From positions 62,001 through 126,000 of the forward strand of contig JAHRWA010000044.1 of NCBI GenBank assembly GCA_019090455.1: DNA of 64,000 bases, read 5' to 3'. Within the stretch, counting starts at the first letter, position 1. Every line of letters begins with the position of its first letter. Source of the stretch: Pseudomonadales bacterium (GTDB lineage: Bacteria; Pseudomonadota; Gammaproteobacteria; Pseudomonadales; DC-out160). This document shows positions 39,922 to 41,265 of this stretch, in pieces. The notes beneath the pieces were generated by a model that was given only the letters and a program-made list of their open reading frames with translations, was not told the DNA's origin and ran no database searches. A program made the translations under genes and the position numbers.

Positions 39922-39948
39922 TAATATAAAGTACCCTAAGACAATTGA

Positions 39949-40012
39949 TAATTTTAATAAAAGGTCGCTGTTTTAAACGATCGTTTAAAACAGCGACCTT
40001 TTATTAAAATTA
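39949..40012. promoter_or_regulatory. Perfect 64-bp palindrome at the psrA promoter (candidate PsrA operator)
   Basis: Bases 39949-39980 are the exact reverse complement of 39981-40012; the bases just outside (39948 and 40013) break the symmetry. The centre is TTTAAACGATCGTTTAAA, compatible with the known Pseudomonas PsrA box of the form GAAAC-N4-GTTTC, though the outer bases differ. The arms hold GGTCGCTG/CAGCGACC, flanked by A- and T-runs, so a transcript through it would fold into a very long hairpin. Probably an autoregulatory operator and perhaps a 5'-end stabiliser or attenuator. Confidence 0.8.
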
Positions 40013-40035
40013 CGTTCGATATGAGTAATTGTCAA
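40007..40035 (-). promoter_or_regulatory. Sigma-70 promoter of psrA
   Basis: Read on the minus strand: a perfect TTGACA (40035-40030), a 17-base spacer and TAATTT (40012-40007). The -10 forms the first bases of the 64-bp palindrome, so the start of transcription falls inside it, near 40000, and PsrA binding should block initiation. Confidence 0.65.
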
Positions 40036-40112
40036 GAAATAAGGGGGGACGACTTTGCATACATTACACCCAATGCCATTTATTAACATTTGCAGAGGAG
40101 AGATAAAATTAA

Positions 40113-40138
40113 ATAAAAAAGGACAGCCGTAGCTGCCC
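40113..40138 (-). terminator. Rho-independent terminator after the lipoprotein-sorting-like gene
   Basis: On the minus strand GGGCAGC-TACG-GCTGTCC (one G-U pair in a 7-bp stem with a UACG loop) is followed by TTTTTTATTT. It stands about 40 bases after the stop of the gene at 40176-40958 and isolates psrA from it. Confidence 0.85.
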
Positions 40139-40175: not shown

Positions 40176-40958
40176 TCACCTAGCGCGCTTTAAACTATTT
40201 TTCGTGAAATCGCTTTCCTTTAGACCAGTAGAGAAAGCCATCTCACTAAAAAGCAACTCTGTACTTTTACCTGTTTGATGGTTTTTCATAGTCATATTTA
40301 AAGGACGCCAAAACTTTTCGCTATACAATTCATACTCACTCATAATTAACGTTTTAAGGAGAGATTTTTTTCGATCATAAAAATCGACTTTCAAGGTACG
40401 ATACTCTGCCTTATCCATCCACGCTACATGCCGCGTATAACCTGAATTTTTATCGACAGGATAACGCTCCATCACGAAGCATTCTTTACCATCAAGCTCC
40501 TCATCTCTTAACCATTTATACCCATACTTTTCGACTTCTTGAGAGCTCAGGTCCTCAAACGCAAACTCACTACCAACGAAGGGTCCGGATTTATTCTTAG
40601 AAGCAATTTTTTTAACGCGCTTTAAGGCGGGTAGATACAACCACTGATCATCTGACCTATCCTTGTGAGAATGCGTTAACAGTGCCGTTCCTTTTTGATC
40701 TCTAGGCGTATCAAAAATCATTAGGCTCAAGTCCCCGTCAGCAGGATTTTCTAGAGCTCTAACTCTTAATCGGCGACGACTTTCATCACCACGTTTATTT
40801 TTCAACACCATTTCCATTGTAGAGATGCTATCAACAAACCCCTCTCCTCGGATATCAGCTTCTTTGGCAATAGCCAATCCCTTCTCTTCAGGAGTCTCAG
40901 CTAGCCCACTTAAAGGAAGTGCAGCAAATATCAAACCCAATACTAATGGCTTTACCAT
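40176..40958 (-). CDS. Outer-membrane lipoprotein-sorting-like periplasmic protein (LolA-like fold)
   Basis: About 260 residues with a signal peptide (MVKPLVLGLIFAALPLSGLA). GGAG six bases before ATG 40958 supports this start over ATG 40970. The mature part has RRLRVRALE, DQWLYLPALKRVKKIASKNKSGPFVGSEFAFEDL and a strand-rich remainder, as in the PF17131-type LolA-like family. Relatives are usually encoded beside an MMPL/RND lipid exporter, with which they are thought to shuttle lipids; here the nearest such exporter is at 21.1-23.7 kb. It is a single gene with its own terminator. Confidence 0.75.
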   Translation of the reverse strand: MVKPLVLGLIFAALPLSGLAETPEEKGLAIAKEADIRGEGFVDSISTMEMVLKNKRGDESRRRLRVRALENPADGDLSLMIFDTPRDQKGTALLTHSHKDRSDDQWLYLPALKRVKKIASKNKSGPFVGSEFAFEDLSSQEVEKYGYKWLRDEELDGKECFVMERYPVDKNSGYTRHVAWMDKAEYRTLKVDFYDRKKSLLKTLIMSEYELYSEKFWRPLNMTMKNHQTGKSTELLFSEMAFSTGLKESDFTKNSLKRAR

Positions 40959-41265
40959 TTCATTCTCCATCTCGTTAATTTACATTTTTTACTGATGACA
41001 ACAATAAATTCAATTTTTTACACGCGAGTAAGCATACATGACATTGAAGAGTCTTGGTATGCAACTTTATTAAGCCCCGGCACAAACAAAATGGACATAC
41101 TACGCACTTAAGTCAAACCACTTACTGCTTATAATACAACACAAATAAAATTGACCTCTGAGGATAAGACCAGAAATCGCACCTAGCTAAAAATTGACGA
41201 GCTAATTACGCTTCCCTTTTATACCTCGCTATTCCTGATTCGAATACCTGACCTCAGTTTAACGG

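Follow-up and report, generated by a model that had tools for sequence, protein, structure and literature searches.

A perfect 64-bp palindrome around the predicted PsrA auto-operator of a psrA gene in a Pseudomonadales genome

How a regulatory gene comes to be preceded by 64 bp of unbroken symmetry, and how much of that symmetry has a function, were the questions raised by a locus in the analyzed window, a stretch of 64,000 nucleotides from a Pseudomonadales bacterium. Positions 39949-40012 consist of TAATTTTAATAAAAGGTCGCTGTTTTAAACGA followed by its exact reverse complement with a 0-nt spacer, as an earlier note on this DNA had described, and the arms of 32 nt are 100% complementary. The palindrome lies between a TTGACA-N17-TAATTT promoter and a gene for a PsrA-type TetR regulator. 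Based on the base composition, the chance expectation for a palindrome of this size is ∼8e-15 per 64 kb. In the 464 kb of the same genome that were scanned, the runner-up spacerless palindromes had arms of 11 bp, and looped hairpins (loops 3-6), part of which are terminators, had arms of up to 21 bp. A further 7-bp inverted pair (GACAATT at 39940-39946 and AATTGTC at 40028-40034) was seen outside the palindrome; its right copy takes in part of the -35 hexamer, and the pair is possibly due to chance. The features of the locus are collected in Table 1.

Table 1. Features of the psrA upstream region, in positions of the window.
Feature	Position	Strand	Basis or remark
Spacerless perfect palindrome, 64 bp	39949..40012	.	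Two 32-nt arms, 100% complementary; single genome copy
Operator dyad GTTTTAAACGATCGTTTAAAAC, 22 bp, predicted PsrA site	39970..39991	.	AAACN4GTTT common in psrA upstream regions; published motif
12-bp core AAACGATCGTTT of the operator dyad	39975-39986	.	
Part of the palindrome kept as a dyad in G001	39965..39996	.	32 bp, 2 mismatches, 2 double compensatory changes
psrA promoter, -35 hexamer TTGACA	40030..40035	-	Conserved in G001
psrA promoter, -10 hexamer TAATTT	40007..40012	-	3/6 consensus; first six palindrome bases on the - strand
Putative decayed remnant of the -10-overlapping, order-wide operator	40006..40017	-	Upstream-region comparison
Predicted 5'-terminal hairpin of the psrA mRNA	39960..40001	-	19-bp stem, 4-nt loop
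Terminator-like U-rich tract UUUUAUU following the GC-rich base of the stem	39956..39962	-	Score 32.6
psrA-like TetR regulator gene, 216 aa	39271..39921	-	TetR_N + TetR_C_30 domains
Intrinsic terminator of the upstream LolA-like gene	40111..40138	-	Stem-loop 40138-40121 + T tail
LolA-like gene upstream of psrA	40176-40970	-	

Judged from its sequence, the gene downstream of the palindrome is called psrA, the name that the earlier note had given it. The domains of its product agree with this name, and so do its best solved relative, 2fbq (E 3.8e-61), in which the DNA-reading segment TSKAGVNLAAVNYHFGSK is identical, and the gene order psrA-YkuD-nagZ, which is that of Pseudomonas/Alcanivorax. The lexA gene is located near the psrA locus. 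With the NCBIfam PsrA model, whose cut-off is 300 bits, the window protein scored 210; this threshold does not set the protein apart because the PsrA of Pseudomonas linyingensis scores just 218 bits. The stop codon of psrA (39271) overlaps the start of a gene for a YkuD L,D-carboxypeptidase-like protein, and the arrangement suggests that psrA and YkuD form one operon.

A terminator, a repeat element of the REP or MITE kind or an assembly artefact, in each case unrelated to PsrA, is a very improbable explanation of the palindrome. Its perfect symmetry is unusual and it is terminator-like on both strands, as such an explanation would have it, but the LolA-like transcript can end without it, at a separate terminator that the upstream gene has of its own, and the palindrome was ruled out as the terminator of that gene. 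A repeat element was also ruled out, given that a search of the 5.55-Mb genome for the central 36-mer, with up to 3 mismatches allowed, gave one occurrence. The unique flanks, with the promoter on one side and psrA on the other, continue in the window as they do in the same-genus relative G001, unlike those of a fold-back chimera. The matches to Rfam, mainly to eukaryotic microRNA hairpins, were all below the gathering score, and a known RNA family was rejected. Moreover, the core of the palindrome is the operator found order-wide at psrA, as described below.

The psrA promoter runs on the - strand from TTGACA (40035-40030) across 17 bp to TAATTT (40012-40007), with the spacing, and with the -10 formed by the first six bases of the palindrome, as stated in the earlier note. 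The term "near-consensus" that was applied to it there is too strong: the -35 matches the consensus at 6/6 positions and the -10 at only 3/6, and the promoter is absent from the output of a consensus promoter scan. The presence of TTGACA-N17-TATTTT at the equivalent place in G001 supports the predicted promoter. The fusion of the -10 to the palindrome holds in this genome but not in G001, whose -10 is outside the dyad; by this comparison, the fusion is specific to the genome studied here. Transcription would start at ∼39999-40001, and only ∼21 nt per arm would be transcribed, since the palindrome includes the -10 and the bases between it and the start. An alternative promoter, TTATCA-N17-TATATT (39951-39923), was rejected since its start would fall inside the psrA frame.

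For comparison, we sampled the upstream regions of ∼110 psrA genes, drawn from genomes of the order and from named genomes of Alcanivorax and Pseudomonas. AAAC-N4-GTTT was present in 85 of the 89 regions analyzed; 52 of the 89 carried the operator as two sites 13 bp apart, and 57 showed the arrangement TTGAC/T-N10-14-operator. The usual arrangement is TTGACA-N11/12-AAACGTATGTTTCAAAC, with the -10 (TATGTT) inside the operator. For Pseudomonas, the PsrA motif G/CAAAC-N2-4-GTTTG/C has been published (PMC3510223, PMC13104628). In P. fluorescens 2P24, EMSA showed PsrA binding to the psrA upstream sequences GAAACGTATGTTTC and CAAACAAGTGTTTG, and loss of repression of psrA was seen in the mutant (PMC3510223). 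In P. putida, the psrA promoter is covered by PsrA from -18 to +20 (PMC13104628). The palindrome centre, GTTTTAAACGATCGTTTAAAAC, is most likely the PsrA auto-operator of psrA, as predicted from this motif. The earlier note had seen a core resembling a PsrA box inside the palindrome, and its AAAC-N4-GTTT matches the order-wide psrA operator. The window core is flanked by T/A and lacks the published G or C on each half; among 138 sites at psrA promoters of the order, T/A flanks were found at 7 and A/T flanks at 2. Genome-wide, counts of other PsrA-type sites were 8 versus 15 and 6 versus 4 in the reversed control, and no regulon can be read from them because they are not clearly above this control. 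Near one other PsrA-type genomic site, none of the ORFs listed was complete.

The position of the operator differs from the usual one. The usual double site has no counterpart in the window, where there is a single core; counted from a predicted start at ∼40000, this core lies at ∼+14 to +25 and the dyad centre at ∼+20. In the window's genus, the intact dyad is found ∼20 bp further downstream than the usual site. The site overlapping the -10 reads GAACGTAATTTT in the window, AAACGTATTTTC in G001 and AAACGTATGTTT elsewhere, and in this genus it looks decayed. The operator was likewise missing from its usual place in four other psrA genes of the order (L134, L136, L138 and L113); in L134, a similar site lies ∼120 bp before the start. 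Dyads of intermediate size round the operator were observed in L112 (G058; 41 bp), L114 (34 bp) and L164 (41 bp), loops included.

The 64 bp could be read as one long operator, symmetric because several adjacent PsrA dimers bind to it. This is quite improbable: most psrA promoters do have two overlapping sites 13 bp apart, and a palindrome in genome G144 (see below) contains three such sites, but the sequences 13 bp either side of the window core, AAACAGCGACCT, amount to no more than half-sites, and neither AAAC nor GTTT occurs in the outermost 20 bases of either side.

Conservation within the genus was analyzed by comparison with one relative, G001, whose psrA is 88% identical to that of the window. 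The same core, AAACGATCGTTT, was found at the same place. At arm positions 13 and 15, both sides differ between G001 and the window with pairing kept; compensatory changes in both arms, which the earlier note proposed to seek by aligning upstream regions, are thus present as two double changes in the inner 32 bp. Both mismatches of the G001 dyad are G.U-compatible in the psrA mRNA. The earlier note had made its reading depend on conservation beyond the central 18 bases in relatives; in G001 the dyad does extend to 32 bp, but symmetry is not kept beyond 16 bases per side, that is, in the outer 16 bases of each arm. By this comparison, the dyad is conserved over only about half of the 64 bp. Selection for a longer operator or an RNA stem is another possible reason why 32 bp are conserved.

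At the RNA level, the psrA mRNA would open with a strong hairpin, in keeping with the earlier note; the whole leader, taken from the predicted start, folds with -27.5 kcal/mol (z -7.2). The terminator score of the window, calculated with our own script, compares with -36.1 for G001, and the G001 hairpin is weaker (-14.5 kcal/mol for the 32-nt dyad). The leader hairpin was not listed by a pattern scan for terminators, probably because its stem continues into the U tract. In G001, every near-matching pair inside and outside the dyad is G.U in the psrA sense, with no A.C pair among them, which is suggestive of an RNA role, a lead rather than evidence enough; in the other relatives, the wobble bias is too slight to carry weight.

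The stem, its folding energy, the U tract and the G.U pairs of G001 would all be expected if the whole palindrome had been selected as an RNA element containing the operator, either a 5' stabilising hairpin or an attenuator ∼40 nt past the start. This explanation is unlikely. The terminator feature is missing in G001 and the outer arms are not conserved there, most psrA genes of the order carry the short operator only, and a terminator 40 nt past the start would block psrA unless it were weak or regulated, and the alternative structure that such a switch would need was not found. Also doubtful is the idea of a dual role, in which the palindrome serves as PsrA operator in the DNA and as a terminator or stability hairpin at the 5' end of the psrA mRNA. 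If this were true, the same bases would set both repressor occupancy and early termination, and template switching would be a route from an operator to an RNA regulatory hairpin.

The origin of the perfect arms was examined at offsets 12-24 from the operator centre. All 13 positions were symmetric (13/13) in 2 of 91 distinct sites, all others reached at most 7/13, and random centres gave a mean of 3.3 matches at the same offsets. The second, independent case was found in G144, a genome of an unrelated family, where perfect arms of 26 bp with a 2-nt spacer reach almost to the start codon and hold three overlapping AAAC-N4-GTTT sites. The upstream region concerned (L192) consists of GTGCGCTCAAACGTAAGTTTAAAACA, the spacer and a perfect inverted copy; L157 has the same sequence. 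A palindrome of this type is absent from the genus-mates G017 and G090, both of which have the ordinary double operator. Template switching in replication has been described to produce perfect hairpins in one event and to make imperfect ones perfect (PMC8794818). A one-step template switch, i.e., an inverted copy, fits the full-length perfection better than a conserved full-length function would, because long symmetry is rare and all-or-none and because the second case is missing in the genus-mates. The dyad is imperfect in G001 and perfect in the window with unchanged flanks, and G144 stands in the same relation to G017 and G090, which is the pattern that a template switch would leave. In likeness to G001, the leader-side arm gave p ∼0.06 and the promoter-side arm 0.34, with one relative and weak similarity; the window promoter arm compared with the reverse complement of the G001 leader arm gave p ∼0.03, again at weak similarity. 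From these values, the leader arm is, tentatively, the more likely copied arm. The rate of such events is not estimable from the two cases because one of them is the finding itself.

The instability of long palindromes had been taken in the earlier note to mean that the survival of this one implies selection. At 64 bp this argument is weak, because a far longer perfect palindrome of 460 bp has been maintained experimentally in the E. coli chromosome (PMC4245961), and because a recent template switch would account for the perfection without long survival.

The locus is probably best explained as an autoregulatory operator that was displaced downstream and recently made perfect over 64 bp by a template switch. 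The PsrA operator of psrA would have moved from its usual position on the -10 by about two helical turns in the downstream direction, and a shorter, imperfect dyad would have become the perfect 64 bp when a template switch during replication copied one arm onto the other. On this reading, the psrA gene would be repressed by its own product, bound to the central 20-22 bp immediately past the start, and fatty-acid ligands would lift the repression as in Pseudomonas. The outer arms would be mainly a by-product that supplies the strong hairpin at the 5' end of the mRNA, and this hairpin may modulate stability or read-through. What can be read directly is the dyad, the operator core, the promoter, the partial conservation and the second independent case; from these sequences we infer PsrA binding with repression, the position of the start, and the copying of an arm with its direction.

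Compared with the auto-operator of Pseudomonas psrA, the window has the same gene, an AAAC-N4-GTTT dyad, a TTGACA promoter and, in the protein, a DNA-reading segment that is essentially the same. The Pseudomonas operator, however, is usually double and overlaps the -10, whereas the single core of the window lies ∼20 bp downstream, inside a perfect 64-bp palindrome and with T/A rather than G/C flanks. The likeness to template-switch mutations that perfect quasipalindromes lies in the imperfect relative and the perfect, longer window sequence, in the all-or-none distribution and in the second case absent from genus-mates. In contrast to such mutations, the event is deduced here from two or three species rather than observed as a mutation, and in the window it falls on the operator of a regulator and takes in the -10. 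A GC-rich stem base followed by UUUUAUU is shared with intrinsic terminators and attenuators, but the window hairpin, found ∼40 nt past the promoter, has no alternative fold and is not conserved in G001.

The predicted operator is thus of a known type, an ordinary site, by its sequence, in an unusual placement and probably perfected recently; its length and perfection are a curiosity and do not make it a new kind of element. The two cases form a natural pair from unrelated families in which an operator apparently became a long perfect palindrome in one step with its core intact, and a shift of the psrA auto-operator relative to the -10 is shown in one lineage. The part of template switching in the evolution of symmetric operators and of 5' mRNA hairpins is testable by comparison at the genus level.
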